In this document: one piece after another, positions 3,952 to 49,262 of the stretch | How the letters are laid out: each line of letters begins with the position of its first letter | How positions within the stretch are numbered: position 1 is the first letter of the stretch | Assembly: GCA_903843225.1 (NCBI GenBank) | Contig: CAIMOX010000007.1 | Span: 1 to 64,000 of the forward strand | Length of the DNA: 64,000 nt | Source: an uncultured Actinomycetes bacterium | GTDB taxonomy: Bacteria > Actinomycetota > Actinomycetes > Nanopelagicales > Nanopelagicaceae | Direction: 5' to 3' | Program-made: the position numbers and the translations under genes | Notes under the pieces: model-generated | What the model saw: the letters and a program-made list of their open reading frames with translations, nothing else | What the model was told of the DNA's origin: nothing | Databases searched by the model: none

Positions 3952-4569
3952 TTAACCACCAATAACGTTGCTTGCACTGACTGTCGCCTTGATCGTTAGT
4001 AGTCGATTCATCGCAGAACCAGGTAGCAACGGCAACGCTAGCATCGGGGCAATCTGCGCAGTAATAGTTGTATGGAGCACATCACCATCGCAAGCGAAGT
4101 GAGCGACGGAAATCGGAGCTCCGTGTAACTGCACCGACGCTAGTTCGGTTTCAAGGGTTTGCGCTGCTGCAGAACAGTCAATGGGGAGTAAATAGGTTGG
4201 GGCATTTCCGCCAGCATCTGCTTGCACTCGCTCCCCCGAGTAATAGCGATTCAGGTCAACGTTATGTGCGGCAGTAGATATTGCTGCCTCACCGATATTA
4301 ATCAATTGGCGTTGCGAAAGGTAAGCCCCAGATACATCAATGATTGCAAATGAGAGCACCACTGTGAGTAAGAAGAGGGCGGTGATAAAAAGTGATAACG
4401 ATCCAGACTCATCACTAAGGAATGAACTGCTCGCCGTGCATGTGCTCCGTGCGCATTGGTCGCTGGGCGCGGGTATATCGCCAATCGCGGGTATATCACC
4501 AGGCGCGGGTAAGTCGCTGCGCGCGGGTAAGTCGCTGGGCGAGCGTTGCAATCTCGCTGAGCTAGCCAC
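3952..4569 (-). CDS. TadG-like pilus assembly protein
   Basis: This is the last gene of the Tad operon. After residue 50 it shows the TadG-type N-terminal module: DESGSLSLFITALFLL, one membrane segment, then a stretch ending LINIGEAAISTAAHNVD. The remainder is an extracytoplasmic domain of about 110 residues. I choose the GTG at 4569 because GGAG lies seven bases upstream; an ATG at 4584 is possible but lacks a good site. Either way the gene starts inside the end of the preceding TadE gene. The first 45 residues are unusual: they are coded by an in-frame 18-bp repeat (SDLPAR, SDLPAP, GDIPAI, GDIPAP), which normal relatives do not have. The start is uncertain, the family is fairly sure. Confidence 0.7.
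   Translation of the reverse strand: MASSARLQRSPSDLPARSDLPAPGDIPAIGDIPAPSDQCARSTCTASSSFLSDESGSLSLFITALFLLTVVLSFAIIDVSGAYLSQRQLINIGEAAISTAAHNVDLNRYYSGERVQADAGGNAPTYLLPIDCSAAAQTLETELASVQLHGAPISVAHFACDGDVLHTTITAQIAPMLALPLLPGSAMNRLLTIKATVSASNVIGG
4466..4537. repeat. 18-bp degenerate tandem repeat, four copies
   Basis: Units 4466-4483, 4484-4501, 4502-4519 and 4520-4537 all contain GCGGGTAWRTC and differ at a few positions. They lie just after the stop codon of the upstream TadE gene and are read in frame as six-residue Pro-rich units by the TadG-like gene. Confidence 0.8.
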
Positions 4570-4963
4570 TGCTTCTCCAAGCATCAACAATCTGTGTTGC
4601 GCTCCCGCTCTTTCCACTAGGCGATGCCGTGACCGTGACCGATACTTTTGCATTCGGCGATAAGCAAGGTATCGCTCCACATTGAATCGCTAAGGTTAAA
4701 ATTTCACGACTCCCGTGTATCGGCAGAATTTGATTCTGATACACGCTCAATACTTCATTCGCTCTGACCAGGGCTAAATCCTCGCTGGTACTAGTGGTGT
4801 AGGCCCGGGCAACTTGCCTAGAAATATTCTGTAAATCCATCGACCCCTGGGCAGCACCATTGACCGAATTCAAATAGAGCGACAGTGGGATAAAGAGCGG
4901 CAGGGCAATCATGATGAACTCTAGAACCGCGCTTCCAGCCTCATCACGAAACCATCGCTTCAT
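4562..4963 (-). CDS. TadE-like pseudopilin
   Basis: TadE-family proteins are minor pseudopilins of Tad/Flp pili, processed by prepilin peptidase. The N-terminus MKRWFRDEAGSAVLEF leads straight into a hydrophobic segment (about residues 10-32), the pattern of this family with a Glu five positions after the small residue of the cleavage site. The rest, about 100 residues, is exported and has two cysteines (CGAIPC) that may pair. The ATG overlaps the stop of the gene before by 4 bp, so translation is probably coupled. Confidence 0.82.
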   Translation of the reverse strand: MKRWFRDEAGSAVLEFIMIALPLFIPLSLYLNSVNGAAQGSMDLQNISRQVARAYTTSTSEDLALVRANEVLSVYQNQILPIHGSREILTLAIQCGAIPCLSPNAKVSVTVTASPSGKSGSATQIVDAWRSSG

Positions 4964-5370
4964 GGTCCTTCCCCAAGCGTGACTCCAACCGACGCGAAAT
5001 TGTCACCTCTAGGTAAAAGTGGCGTTATCGCTGCAAGGTGGCTCTGTTCTTCACCGATCAACAATTGACCACCGCCGGTTAGCGACAAGCCAGTCGCGGC
5101 ATCAATTCCATTCGCCTTCATGAATTCAAATGGATTACCGATGGTGGCCGTACGAAGCCCGCTCTGCACCACTGTGCTCTGAACACGATTACTCGCAACC
5201 TGACGACCTAATACGCCAGCTGCAATTTGCAATATACTCAGAACTAATACAAGTAACGGAACAAGTACTAGAGCGCTCTCGACCGTTCCGCTCTCATCGC
5301 GCAATCTCCGCTGCCAGGATTCCCGGATACTCTTCCTGAGCAACATATCGGGAGCGGCCTCATCGAACAT
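4960..5370 (-). CDS. TadE-like pseudopilin
   Basis: A second TadE-type protein of 136 residues. The motif RDESGTVESALVLVPLL (from about residue 23) opens the single hydrophobic segment, with Glu at the pilin-like position. The exported part of about 85 residues has no cysteine. It overlaps the pilin-like gene before it by 11 bp and the TadE gene after it by 4 bp. Having two TadE-type proteins and a TadG-type protein is normal for actinobacterial Tad loci. Confidence 0.8.
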   Translation of the reverse strand: MFDEAAPDMLLRKSIRESWQRRLRDESGTVESALVLVPLLVLVLSILQIAAGVLGRQVASNRVQSTVVQSGLRTATIGNPFEFMKANGIDAATGLSLTGGGQLLIGEEQSHLAAITPLLPRGDNFASVGVTLGEGP

Positions 5371-5830
5371 TATTCATCGCGTCGAGTGAGCCGCGTAGCA
5401 ATGATTCAATGCGCGGGGCTGCGACGGTCCAGATTCCTGTAACGAGACCCGTAGTCATCAACACCACGAGTACCCATCCTGGCACATCTCCACGCTCATC
5501 AATGATTACCCTACGAATGCACCTCTTAAAGTCGCGCACAAAATTGCTGATACGCACCGAGAGCCAGAGGAACGCTGACTCACCCTCTCTCGCGTAGACC
5601 TCGACCCCCTCCTTCTCTTCCTCTGCATCTGCATCTAGCTCTGCATCTAGCTCTGCATCTAGCTCTGCATCTAGCTCTGCATCTAGCTCTGCATCTAGCT
5701 CTGCATCTAGCTCTGCATCTAGCTCTGCATCTAGCTCTGCATCTAGCTCTGCATCTAGCTCTTCGATGCTCGGGCCGTCCACAGGTAGCTCCCCCACCCA
5801 CACATCTTCCGTTTCGCTCTTAGCTTGCAT
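5360..5830 (-). CDS. Flp-pilin-like membrane protein with ELDA repeat
   Basis: The last 50 residues (DERGDVPGWVLVVLMTTG and onwards) hold one membrane segment and resemble the small Flp-like proteins found between tadC and tadE in actinobacteria. The conserved pilin Glu5 is not evident, so it may be an accessory rather than the major pilin. What is odd is the N-terminus: about 100 extra residues with eleven identical ELDA units followed by DADAEEEKEG, very acidic and probably cytoplasmic. The start at 5830 is favoured by GGAG six bases upstream; alternatives are ATG 5842 and GTG 5854. Function of the acidic arm is unknown. Confidence 0.68.
   Translation of the reverse strand: MQAKSETEDVWVGELPVDGPSIEELDAELDAELDAELDAELDAELDAELDAELDAELDAELDAELDADAEEEKEGVEVYAREGESAFLWLSVRISNFVRDFKRCIRRVIIDERGDVPGWVLVVLMTTGLVTGIWTVAAPRIESLLRGSLDAMNNVR
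5629..5760. repeat. 12-bp tandem repeat, eleven perfect copies
   Basis: The plus-strand unit CTGCATCTAGCT is repeated eleven times with no difference, coding ELDA on the minus strand. Identity at silent positions shows the array expanded recently by slippage or unequal exchange. The copy number is a multiple of three bases, so the frame survives any gain or loss of units. Confidence 0.97.
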
Positions 5831-5918: not shown

Positions 5919-6524
5919 TTAACCACCTCCGAAGTTCTTCCCCAGCGCAAAGTAAGAAGGCCAAAGCGCAAAGAGGATCGAAATCGGCAGGATCAGAAAT
6001 ACGACTGGAACCATCAAGGAGATCTCCGCCTTGTTAGCCCTCTCCGTAATCGCCAAACGTTGAGCCGATCTCACCTCTTCGACCTGTCTTGCGACAACAT
6101 CAATAAGAGAGGTACCGCGTTCCACCGAGATCGCAAGCGAATCACAGAATCGCCGAATGATCGGTGAATCAAATTCGCCATTGAGGAGATCTAGCGCCTG
6201 TGCAAGATTCATGCCCTCGCGCATCCGTTCAACAATCGGCCTTAGATGGGTGAGAAATTCTCCCTCGCCTTCTTCGCAGATATAGGCCAGTGCTGTTGAT
6301 GGACTCATCCCACCACCAATCAGAATCGCGAAAAGCTCCACAATGAGCGGAAACTCACGTTCAATCTCGTCACGCCTCTTCTTTCGCGCACCTTTAGCAA
6401 TTAAACCCCGCTTAGCTGAAGAAATCCCGTCACGATATTCATCGACAAGAATTCGACTGAAGTAGATAACGATGGGAAGAACGACGAGTAAGGCGAGGAT
6501 GTGCAGAGATTGAGAATTATTCAT
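5919..6524 (-). CDS. tadC: Tad inner-membrane platform protein TadC-like (T2SS-F family)
   Basis: The gene encodes a type II secretion F-domain protein, one half of the membrane platform on which the Tad ATPase works. There is an N-terminal membrane segment (residues 8-24), the F domain (FPLIVELFAILIGGGMSPSTAL to about 150), and a pair of hydrophobic stretches at the C-terminus. At 201 residues it is shorter than typical TadC (about 290), as in other actinobacterial loci. ATGA overlap with tadB indicates coupling. Confidence 0.82.
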   Translation of the reverse strand: MNNSQSLHILALLVVLPIVIYFSRILVDEYRDGISSAKRGLIAKGARKKRRDEIEREFPLIVELFAILIGGGMSPSTALAYICEEGEGEFLTHLRPIVERMREGMNLAQALDLLNGEFDSPIIRRFCDSLAISVERGTSLIDVVARQVEEVRSAQRLAITERANKAEISLMVPVVFLILPISILFALWPSYFALGKNFGGG

Positions 6525-7225
6525 CGCTGGAAAATCCTTGGTGTCTGAGGCAATCTACCGACACGACCCATCCAGATGTACGCCACGATACTCATCACGA
6601 CTCCAGCGAGAAGAACGCTCACCCCGCCTGGAGTAGAGAAAGCCTTCACTGTATTTGATTGTGTTGAGAGGATGAGAAGGAGAATCCATGGCGCAGCGGC
6701 GGCGATGAGTGCGGAGTTTTTAATCCAACCATGTTTGGCCCTAATCTCACTCCGCAACGAAATATCACTGCGAATAAAGTCCCCTAAAGTGCGTAGCGTT
6801 ATCGTCGTATCTCGACTTCCAGTACCTCGGGCGAAATTCAAAACTTCGCAGACTTGATCGGCCAATCCATCATCAAATCTCTGCCTAATAATTCTAAATA
6901 CTTCATCAAAATCTCCATTCGTCCTTAAAACGCTCTCACAATCTCTAAAAGTTTCTCGGGTAGCGAGCGGGCCACGCTGAGAGAGCCCTATAAGTGTCTC
7001 CGCCAACGACATTCCCGATCTCAGTCCAGAGATGATGTGGTCGATGATCTCTGGCCACAACGCTGCCAATTCGATTCGTTCCCGCTCAGCACTTCGCTTC
7101 GCAAAGGCGGTAGGTAGATACAAAGATAGAAGTGCAATGAGCACCGCCAAGAGCAAGGATCTCAGCAGGAGATAACTTGTGAGGAAGGCTGCTAGCGGAA
7201 GTGTAATTTTCTTCGATCGGATCAT
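6521..7225 (-). CDS. tadB: Tad inner-membrane platform protein TadB-like (T2SS-F family)
   Basis: This is the second F-domain platform protein. Membrane segments occupy roughly residues 10-42, the F domain (LWPEIIDHIISGLRSGMSLAET) covers about 50-165, and two more segments near 170-190 and 200-220 close the protein. It overlaps tadA and tadC by 4 bp each. Together with TadC it forms the inner-membrane core of the pilus machine. Confidence 0.83.
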   Translation of the reverse strand: MIRSKKITLPLAAFLTSYLLLRSLLLAVLIALLSLYLPTAFAKRSAERERIELAALWPEIIDHIISGLRSGMSLAETLIGLSQRGPLATRETFRDCESVLRTNGDFDEVFRIIRQRFDDGLADQVCEVLNFARGTGSRDTTITLRTLGDFIRSDISLRSEIRAKHGWIKNSALIAAAAPWILLLILSTQSNTVKAFSTPGGVSVLLAGVVMSIVAYIWMGRVGRLPQTPRIFQR

Positions 7226-8298
7226 CTCATCTCCGTTTCCAATGAATGGTTGCGGCGCTCAAAGATTCGCTCCGGGTTACCTAACCCAGGGAGATATTTA
7301 CCGTTCTGATATATAAAGAGTGGCTCACTCTCGACTCGATTATTTTCGACTCGACCGGTTATTGCACAAATCTCAACAACTCGTCTTACGCCGGCCCGCG
7401 ATGCCGGAACGAGCCCAGGCTTCAGGGTCGTGCTGTTATCTCGAGCAATCGTGGTGTGAATGACGAGATCGATCGTAGAGGCGACTATTGGTGCAATAAA
7501 ATCGTGTGAGATATTTTCTCCCGCTAATAAGGGAAGGGTTTGTAACTTGCTCACTGCATCGCGAGCTGAGTTTGCGTGGATTGTGGCCATCCCTGGAATT
7601 CCTGAATTCAGTGCGATGAGGAGATCAAGTGACTCCGCCTCGCGTATTTCACCAACAACTAATTGTGAGGGGCGCATACGTAGCGCTTCTTTAATCAACC
7701 GTCGTAGCGCGATCTCGCCCTCCCCTTGTAGGTTGGCAGGTCTTGTTTGAAGCGCAACACAGTCAGGCAACTTTGGTTTAAGTTCAAATACTTCTTCGAT
7801 GGTGAGAACGCGGTTTCCTGCTGGCACTGCACTCACTAAGGCGTTGAGTAAGGTCGTCTTCCCAGCTTGCGTCGATCCACTCACTAAAATATTGAGGCCG
7901 TGCGCGACCGCCCGACTCATGAAGGTGGCTACCTCTCTGCTCATAACGCCAAGGTCCGCAAGTTCATCGAGCGACTTCCCTCGGACGAGATGCTTGCGGA
8001 TATTCACAGCCCAGTGATTCGCCGTGACTTCAGGGATGGCCACATGCAATCGGCTTCCATCGGGCAATCTGGCGTCAACGAATGGGTGCGAAAGATCTAA
8101 CCGTCTTCCTCCCCACATGAGTAGTCGTTCAACGAGTTCGCGAACCTCCTCGGAGCTCATGACGAGATTCGTTAATTCACTCACTCCAGCCTTCGCGACA
8201 AAGATGCGATGAGGTGAATTGATCCAAACTTCTTCTACTGCTGGATCTTCGATCAATTCGGCGATCTTCCCGAACTCTGCTTGGCGCTCAATCTTCAC
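7222..8298 (-). CDS. tadA: Tad pilus assembly ATPase TadA/CpaF
   Basis: This is the hexameric secretion ATPase that powers pilus growth. Walker A is GSTQAGKTTLL, slightly off the common GGTGTGKTT but with the essential GKT intact. The Asp/Glu boxes and Walker B region RMRPSQLVVGEIREAE, followed by MATIHANS with the conserved His, are all present. Length 358 is near the usual size. The start codon is GTG. No tadZ/cpaE or cpaB gene is seen next to it, so the septum/polar localisation factor must be elsewhere or missing. Confidence 0.92.
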   Translation of the reverse strand: MKIERQAEFGKIAELIEDPAVEEVWINSPHRIFVAKAGVSELTNLVMSSEEVRELVERLLMWGGRRLDLSHPFVDARLPDGSRLHVAIPEVTANHWAVNIRKHLVRGKSLDELADLGVMSREVATFMSRAVAHGLNILVSGSTQAGKTTLLNALVSAVPAGNRVLTIEEVFELKPKLPDCVALQTRPANLQGEGEIALRRLIKEALRMRPSQLVVGEIREAESLDLLIALNSGIPGMATIHANSARDAVSKLQTLPLLAGENISHDFIAPIVASTIDLVIHTTIARDNSTTLKPGLVPASRAGVRRVVEICAITGRVENNRVESEPLFIYQNGKYLPGLGNPERIFERRNHSLETEMR

Positions 8299-12108: not shown

Positions 12109-13092
12109 TTAGAGCCCTGCGCGTACCTTCTTCATGGCGCGCTTACCCTTTGTGCTCTTTCGGCTCGCCTTCTTTACTACGCCTGACTTGTTCGCTGCGC
12201 CAGACTTTTTCGCTGCGCCTGACTTCTTGCCACCCTTAGCGGCTCCAGAAGCCGGTGCACTAGATCCGTTCACATCAGAGCCAGCACCTTGCTTAGCTAC
12301 ATGCGCGGAAGCCGGTACGAACGCTGAATCAGTTGCTGCCTGGAAAGGTGCTGCAATCCCAGCGCCGCTCCCGACCTTTGCGATACCCCCATTACCCGCA
12401 TTATCTGATGTGAGGGTTATTGATCCTGGCTCCCCGGTCATTGAAACTTTCTTGAGTGCAGCACCTTTCTTCATGGTCGGACGCTTCACGGTCGAACGCT
12501 TGACGGCCGGACGCTTCACGGTCGAACCCTTGACGGCCGGACTCTTCGTCGCTCGGCGAGAGGTTGTAGAACTCTTTTTAGCTTGAGTTACTCGAACTGC
12601 AGCAGCGCGCTTAGAGAGAGCTACCTTCTTTGTTGCAATGGACTTCTTGGCAGCAGTTGCTGCAGCGGCGCTTGCCTGACTTTTGGCAGATCGCGCAGCG
12701 GATGCCTTGGTGCGCAATGCAGCGCGCTTTCGTACTACCTCTTTCAACGCTTGCGCTTTACGTGTAGCGGCAGTACCTGAAGAAACTTTGGCGGACGTTG
12801 AGTTGGGAGTGAAAGCTGCGCCTGTCGCCTTCAGTCGCTTGACGCCGGTGCGACGCGTTGGAGCCTTCGCCTTCTTCACTGCTGCCTTCTTCACTGCTGC
12901 TTTCTTAGGAGCGCTCTTCTTTGCCACGGTCGAACCGAGAGCGGTTGCCGGTGCAGCTTTAGTTGCAGCTTTAGTCGCAGCCGATGCCGCAGTGATATCT
13001 AAGGCACCCGCTGGCAGAGCGAGCGCACCAATGAGGGCACAGGCGAGAGCTCCGCGCCGGATAGGTGAGTGATTGAACTTCTGAATATTCAC
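12109..13092 (-). CDS. Secreted Lys/Ala-rich basic protein (histone H1-like composition)
   Basis: The N-terminus has a signal peptide: basic IRRGALACALIGALALPAGA with likely cleavage after ASAA near residue 39. The rest is extremely rich in Lys, Ala, Ser, Thr and Arg, with degenerate pentapeptides such as VKRPA, VKRST and VKRPT and a 30-bp repeat at about 12480-12540. A less basic segment (GSITLTSDNAGNGGIAKV, residues 222-265) interrupts two basic arms. Such arms bind DNA or acidic polymers in other proteins. Because this one is exported, binding to surface polysaccharide or external DNA is more likely than chromosome packing; that is inference. It neighbours the glycan locus in the opposite direction. 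Confidence 0.65.
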   Translation of the reverse strand: MNIQKFNHSPIRRGALACALIGALALPAGALDITAASAATKAATKAAPATALGSTVAKKSAPKKAAVKKAAVKKAKAPTRRTGVKRLKATGAAFTPNSTSAKVSSGTAATRKAQALKEVVRKRAALRTKASAARSAKSQASAAAATAAKKSIATKKVALSKRAAAVRVTQAKKSSTTSRRATKSPAVKGSTVKRPAVKRSTVKRPTMKKGAALKKVSMTGEPGSITLTSDNAGNGGIAKVGSGAGIAAPFQAATDSAFVPASAHVAKQGAGSDVNGSSAPASGAAKGGKKSGAAKKSGAANKSGVVKKASRKSTKGKRAMKKVRAGL

Positions 13093-48322: not shown

Positions 48323-49006
48323 ATGTCGGTGGAGAACTTTATTCAAGAGAGTTTCTTCGAAGATATCTTCCCTTCCGTGACCGGAACGCCTCAACCGTCG
48401 AACTTTCAGCAGCGCCAGCGTAGGCGACTTCTCTCCCCCGCTAAAACTGCACCTCACCCATCACTTCCTGACTTTCGCGTCGTACGCTCGACCCGCCGCA
48501 AGCGCGGTGTCACCGCCTTTCGTAACAATGGCATCATCGAGATTCATATCCCGGATCGCACCACGAGGCGGGATGAAGCTGCACTGATCCCCGAGATGAT
48601 CGCACTTGTCGTAGAACGCGAAGCGCGCCAACGTCGCGGTGATGACCTCCTAGAGAAGATGTCCAGTCAACTACTCTCCCAGTACCTCCCAGAATTTCAT
48701 GAGCGTCCATCCTCAATCCGCTGGCGGAGCATGCAAGGGCGTTGGGGTAGCTGCACCACAGTGGATGGCACCATCCGTGTCGCCGGCCGGTTAGCGAGCG
48801 CACCCGATTATGTGTTGAACTGCGTCATCCTCCATGAGCTCATTCACCTACGCCTGCCAGGCCACGGCCCAGAGTTTTATGAGCTCCTTGCCCGCTACCC
48901 AGATTTAGCCCGAGCGGAGGCCTTCCTCGAAGGCTTTGAATCTGGGCTGGCTAGCGCCCCAGAACCGGTTATCCCGCAGGATCTAGAGCCAGCGCCACTC
49001 CTCTAG
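48323..49006 (+). CDS. YgjP-like (DUF45/M48-type) metallopeptidase
   Basis: The zinc site HELIHLRLPGHGPEFYELL (HExxH plus downstream His) and the preceding SSIRWRSMQGRWGSCTTVDGTIRVAGRLASAP are clear marks of the YgjP/WLM-like peptidase family. About 80 N-terminal residues form the beta-rich lead. The last 25 residues are Pro/Glu-rich. The protein is cytoplasmic; substrates are unknown. The ATG follows GATAACT by about five bases, so it too may be leaderless. Its stop is followed by an array of further in-frame TAG codons. Confidence 0.85.
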   Translation: MSVENFIQESFFEDIFPSVTGTPQPSNFQQRQRRRLLSPAKTAPHPSLPDFRVVRSTRRKRGVTAFRNNGIIEIHIPDRTTRRDEAALIPEMIALVVEREARQRRGDDLLEKMSSQLLSQYLPEFHERPSSIRWRSMQGRWGSCTTVDGTIRVAGRLASAPDYVLNCVILHELIHLRLPGHGPEFYELLARYPDLARAEAFLEGFESGLASAPEPVIPQDLEPAPLL

Positions 49007-49078
49007 GCCGATGAGGCCGATTAGGCCGATTAGGCCGATTAGGCCGATTAGGCCGATTAGGCCGATTAGGCCGACTAG
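49007..49078. repeat. 9-bp tandem repeat of in-frame stop codons
   Basis: Eight units follow the peptidase stop TAG directly: GCCGATGAG, six times GCCGATTAG, then GCCGACTAG. The unit is nine bases long, so seven extra TAG codons stay in frame with the gene. Confidence 0.95.
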
Positions 49079-49121
49079 CCCACGCTCGACCCACGCTCGA
49101 CCCAGCTCGACCCACGCTCGA
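49079..49121. repeat. 11-bp tandem repeat, four copies
   Basis: CCCACGCTCGA occurs at 49079-49089, 49090-49100, a 10-base variant at 49101-49110, and 49111-49121. It directly adjoins the 9-bp array, making one compound repeat tract between the two genes. Confidence 0.88.
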
Positions 49122-49262
49122 CCCACTCAATCGTGCACACAAATAGACGCTCAAGATCCCCCACTACGCTCACACACGCGGGTACCCTCAGCATGTACGC
49201 ACGCTCAGCGCGGGAAGCACCCGGGCGAATTTATGAGTTGCTGCGGCGATAGGAGGGTCATC

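Follow-up and report, generated by a model that had tools for sequence, protein, structure and literature searches.

The Tad cluster and the Flp-slot gene

The window analysed here, a stretch of 64,000 nucleotides from an uncultured member of the Nanopelagicaceae, carries a set of Tad pilus genes on its minus strand: a tadA-like ATPase (7222–8298; the genome yielded no other T2SSE match, suggesting that there is just one Tad cluster); tadB-like (6521–7225) and tadC-like (5919–6524) T2SSF proteins (PF00482, E 2e-8 and 2.9e-16, respectively); a TadE-like pseudopilin (4960–5370; PF07811 at 21.4 bits, just below the cut-off of 22.9); a second TadE-like pseudopilin (4562–4963) with RDEAG/SAVLEF before its membrane segment; and a TadF/G-like protein (3952–4680) with 18-bp repeats in its leader, the last two being named by place and motif and matching no Pfam family. 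Between tadC and tadE, the position looked for in a Flp/Tad pilin, lies a gene for a 156-aa protein with a single membrane segment (5360–5830, minus strand), referred to here as the Flp-slot protein, which by place and topology appears to be pilin-like. Its presumed start is the ATG at 5830, picked for a Shine-Dalgarno-like GGAG (5840–5837) six bases upstream; longer readings of the frame would begin at ATG 5842 or GTG 5854.

Sequence comparison with relatives delimited a conserved core comprising the membrane segment and C-terminus (IDERGDVPGWVLVVLMTTGLVTGIW..., 5363–5503, minus strand); relatives keep the core RGDVPGWVLVVLMTTGLVTGIW and differ in the N-terminal arm. Of 31 relative genomes, 26 have the core, as do 27 of the 32 genus genomes (the window's own included in both), and 16 consecutive residues (G114–L129 of the window protein) were invariant among 11 members. 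The Flp-slot protein matched no Pfam family, and Flp_Fap (PF04964) and DUF4244 (PF14029) were each found in 0/32 genus genomes, with positive controls, and in 0/11 aligned Flp-slot members. The processing site G/XXXXEY was also absent, the glycine being followed by DVPGW in 11/11 and 15/15 aligned members, so the protein is not filed as Flp and, with no Glu at +5 after the Gly, its cleavage is doubtful. A prepilin peptidase gene (PF01478) occurs in 31 of the 32 genus genomes, including the window's, where it lies on another contig. The Flp-slot protein, which has an almost invariant core, belongs to no Pfam family and occurs in genomes where no Flp is visible, may serve as the pilin in these bacteria. 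Matches to an MSCRAMM adhesin family were low-complexity and far under the cut-off, and no more than nine matches, all distant, came from viral contigs. The RGDVPGW core also adjoins tad genes in other actinobacteria, e.g. Kineococcus and Agrococcus (loci L103 and L107), and one genome (G007; contigs 10, 39 and 108) holds three Flp-slot cores, representing either paralogues or a mixed bin.

A perfect 12-bp array in the Flp-slot leader

Tandem Repeats Finder (TRF) reported an array of period 12 at 5628–5762 (11.2 copies, 100% match, no indels), which on the minus strand consists of 11 full units of GAGCTAGATGCA (E-L-D-A) plus 3 bp. Ten successive 12-bp steps of the unit dimer from 5630 to 5761 likewise gave 11 full units, so that the eleven identical units of the original prediction are confirmed and its coordinates of 5629–5760 are right to within 1–2 bases. 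The array lies in frame within the 156-aa open reading frame, N-terminal to the single membrane segment, as had been proposed. Its TRF score of 270 compares with a highest score of 55 in one set of five shuffles, and at a TRF score of 50 the window held 12 arrays against 0, 1, 0, 0 and 0 in another set of five dinucleotide shuffles. The unit dimer had no second site in the window's genome and was absent from all 31 other genus genomes searched, in agreement with the earlier view of an array that is very recent or maintained by exchange: it is young or homogenised, with a unit found only in the window's genome among 32 of the genus. The ELDA array has the features of an in-frame minisatellite, namely perfect tandem units, a period divisible by 3, an open frame and a unit that differs or is absent in close relatives of the window's species.

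Other repeats were seen elsewhere in the window. Arrays of 45-bp and 14-bp period occupy the spacer between ftsE-like and release-factor-2-like genes (2552–2816), and two adjacent intergenic arrays (9 bp x 8.3 and 11 bp x 4.5; 49004–49126) lie just behind a peptidase-like gene, these genes being named by reading their ORFs. A Lys/Ala-rich protein (12109–13092) contains several short in-frame arrays, and two contig ends also fall in Lys/Ala repeat DNA.

Leader length and turnover in relatives

Relatives were grouped by rank into a clade of 72 loci (L030–L101) among the best 80 of at least 570 relatives; an alternative definition, by a core identity of 60% or more to that of the window, takes in 83 of 105 loci, and neither definition is taxonomic. 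Seven clade loci labelled Bifidobacterium breve or Streptomyces griseus (L039, L040, L055, L063, L083, L096 and L099) group with freshwater actinobacterial MAGs, and their labels look wrong. Measured from the first ATG to the core, leaders among the matches listed were 8–120 aa long in the clade (median 45.5, n=78) and 15–69 aa outside it (median 24, n=21, viral-collection contigs included). The expectation that relatives are only about 60 residues long thus holds outside the clade and fails within it. The core began 107–594 bp after the tadC stop (n=57) in the clade vs 68–185 bp (n=16) outside.

In-frame arrays of different units occupy the same leader site: ELDA in the window, NINKVV (G006), PAISTA (G007), SPTSTE-type (L038), SPTETQ (L046), EVKN (L039), NNKETS (L063) and others. 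These units are chemically unrelated and mostly non-acidic, and the arms of some relatives have no repeat, so the arms do not have acidic charge in common; it is peculiar to the window's species, and the suggestion that the arm is a charged cytoplasmic tether, in the sense of a conserved one, is not supported. Two sister species illustrate the turnover: their tadC ends are 89% alike, and the Flp-slot protein of one (G006) has 116 aa and 6.1 units of 18 bp, that of the other (G013) 74 aa and no array, a difference of 42 codons that leaves both in frame, as predicted for a length change of this kind. Four further loci (L039, L042, L049 and L053; tadC approximately 86% alike) have a membrane-near leader in common and differ in the repeat zone. 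L038 carries 8 and L046 carries 4 copies of units that are related but have diverged, suggesting that units were homogenised within each species and that some arrays persist and homogenise, rather than being purely transient. The leader is not free everywhere, since 12 clade loci, among the matches listed, have a common, alignable 33-aa leader, and four genus loci and L033 have in common a conserved leader of approximately 70 aa.

Position and reading frame of the arrays

In the Tad pseudopilin or membrane-protein ORFs near the cluster, counted where an ORF of 60 aa bears a membrane segment, there are 25 in-frame arrays; 23 of them precede that segment, against 9.4 expected from leader lengths (a result matched in none of 200,000 simulations), and the two that follow it are in L031 and L042. 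The leaders of TadE-like and TadF/G-like proteins also carry in-frame arrays, including the 18-bp repeats at 4467–4541 of the window. In the Flp-slot leaders, in-frame arrays stop 71 bp or more short of the core, leaving a membrane-near piece of approximately 24 residues array-free. The TadF/G-like repeats read SDLPAR/GDIPAP, a pattern like that of the ELDA arm, and approximately 1.9 kb past the core of L076 there is a 24-bp, 1.9-copy in-frame repeat in an ORF that by eye resembles the window's release factor 2.

The gap between tadC and the core held 13 arrays in 11.7 kb, and the remaining noncoding DNA had 61 in 107.7 kb (p 0.03), counted at the 42 of 72 named clade loci with tadC found (among the best 80 of at least 570 relatives). 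As a case for a unique hotspot before the Flp-slot gene, this roughly twofold enrichment is weak. Array density in the clade was well above that of shuffles and, among the matches listed, not higher than at eight outgroup loci (155 in 917 kb vs 25 in 135 kb), which gives no support to a clade-specific richness in arrays. Since density does not exceed that of the outgroup and the gap is enriched only about twofold, no special hotspot is claimed.

Inside the pilin frame, all 10 arrays had a period divisible by 3, compared with 7 of the 19 that lie outside (Fisher p 0.0012; arrays under a TRF score of 50, lower-scoring overlapping arrays and those overlapping the core left out); arrays of other periods often contain a stop and are then counted as outside the frame, and three such outside arrays are open in all frames. 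Across the clade, among the matches listed, the rule held for 49 of the 51 arrays in coding DNA and 13 of the 48 in noncoding DNA (p 1.9e-13; arrays with fewer than 2.4 copies or periods under 7 and 10 partly coding arrays left out), although the species are related and the array counts are not independent. As to whether the reading frame is always kept, the ten in-frame periods keep it, and one relative, G004, does not: there a 29-bp unit in a 30-bp array breaks the frame and the part upstream of the break falls outside the pilin frame, so that either translation of the G004 protein begins downstream of that point or the assembly is in error. The periods of the coding arrays argue strongly that the arms are translated, and the ELDA arm very probably is.

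Interpretation

The explanation that we favour, and consider probable, is that the ELDA array is a young minisatellite in the loosely constrained distal part of a pseudopilin leader, filtered only for frame. Replication slippage or unequal exchange would make the array and keep its units uniform; the distal N-terminal leader would be cytoplasmic, ahead of the membrane segment, and could be cut off by the prepilin peptidase. Little beyond the frame and some 24 or more untouched membrane-near residues would then constrain the leader, and unrelated repeats could arise, grow, decay and be replaced species by species, likewise in the TadE- and TadF/G-like neighbours, probably with no specific function. 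The mutational process is an ordinary one; the place is unusual and recurrent.

A functional alternative is a length-tunable spacer, in which an extended cytoplasmic rod or tail would regulate the handling of the pilin by TadA/B/C and copy number would be selected. Repeats do recur at the same spot across many species, and the related array that L038 and L046 have retained, its units homogenised, would suit such a role. An AlphaFold2 model (mean pLDDT 82; helices at residues 22–79, 85–112 and 118–153) likewise predicts the arm as one helix over residues 22–79, with block mean pLDDT of 91–95 over 21–60; low-complexity repeats are often modelled as confident helices, and the pTM of the model was 0.39. 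Neither the composition nor the length of the arm is conserved, and a sister species does without the array; we consider the spacer unlikely. Quite improbable, too, is that Tad pseudopilin leaders in freshwater actinobacteria are a dedicated zone of fast length evolution, in which arrays are created again and again, homogenised and then retained for the sake of tail length, the cytoplasmic tail tuning pilin insertion or pilus output by its length whatever its sequence.

An artefact, in which the assembler made the array or its copy number or the arm is untranslated because the true start lies downstream, would fit the contigs of three relatives that end inside long perfect arrays (L030, L048 and L074) and the GTG and TTG codons located 21 and 15 codons upstream of the core. 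The GGAG-preceded ATG and the divisible-by-3 rule favour translation, however, and in the window's genome 26 pairs of contig ends dovetail, each by exactly 141 bases. MEGAHIT uses 141 as its largest default k, and these dovetails indicate k-mers that exceed the 135-bp array and hence span it; on these grounds a collapse at k=127, for which 135 bp would fall within the collapse range of 127–138, was rejected. Eleven units are thus probably the true copy number of the dominant allele, a number produced by assembly collapse is unlikely, and we regard the artefact as a whole as very unlikely. That copy number acts as a contingency locus, switching the gene on and off or setting its output, is exceedingly improbable, even with a perfect array near the start of a surface-structure gene and with relatives carrying arrays of other periods between tadC and the start codon that could alter expression, because the window's 12-bp unit lies inside the frame rather than being a frame-shifting unit or promoter array, and the in-frame periods are all divisible by 3, so that copy changes cannot switch the frame.

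Read as a young, frame-filtered minisatellite, the ELDA array is one of a series of natural variants in which a pilus protein of abundant lake bacteria differs in leader length, and which offers a clear test of where protein sequence may grow freely; if leader length does tune the machine, the question can be tested with existing species.

Comparison with known systems

Among the papers listed, no title or displayed abstract dealt with repeats in prepilin leaders or in this clade. In lake Planctomycetota, intergenic tandem repeats lie behind structural variants, for which the authors propose slippage (PMC9426551); these are likewise lake bacteria with proposed slippage and differ in phylum, in the intergenic location and in having been followed by long reads within populations, whereas our copy comparison between species used one genome per species.

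The flp gene of Micrococcus luteus is described in PMC4322843 as lying between tadC and tadE/F-like genes in the tad cluster, and the same paper places the prepilin peptidase gene of actinobacteria apart from the cluster. To judge from that account, the M. luteus Flp prepilin resembles the Flp-slot protein in its small size, its one membrane segment, its slot between tadC and tadE/F and a distant peptidase gene. The Flp-slot protein differs in that it lacks G/XXXXEY, matches neither Flp_Fap nor DUF4244 and has a leader of up to 120 aa when read from the first ATG. The TadE/TadF pseudopilins of the clade have the same topology and also gather in-frame arrays in their leaders; the TadE-like neighbours keep a Glu after the Gly, and the Flp-slot protein does not.

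The in-frame minisatellites (coding VNTRs) of other bacteria share with the ELDA array perfect tandem units, a period that is a multiple of three, species specificity and a location in a poorly conserved part of the protein. In contrast to those systems, the recurrence seen here involves unrelated units and spans several pseudopilin leaders within a single cluster.
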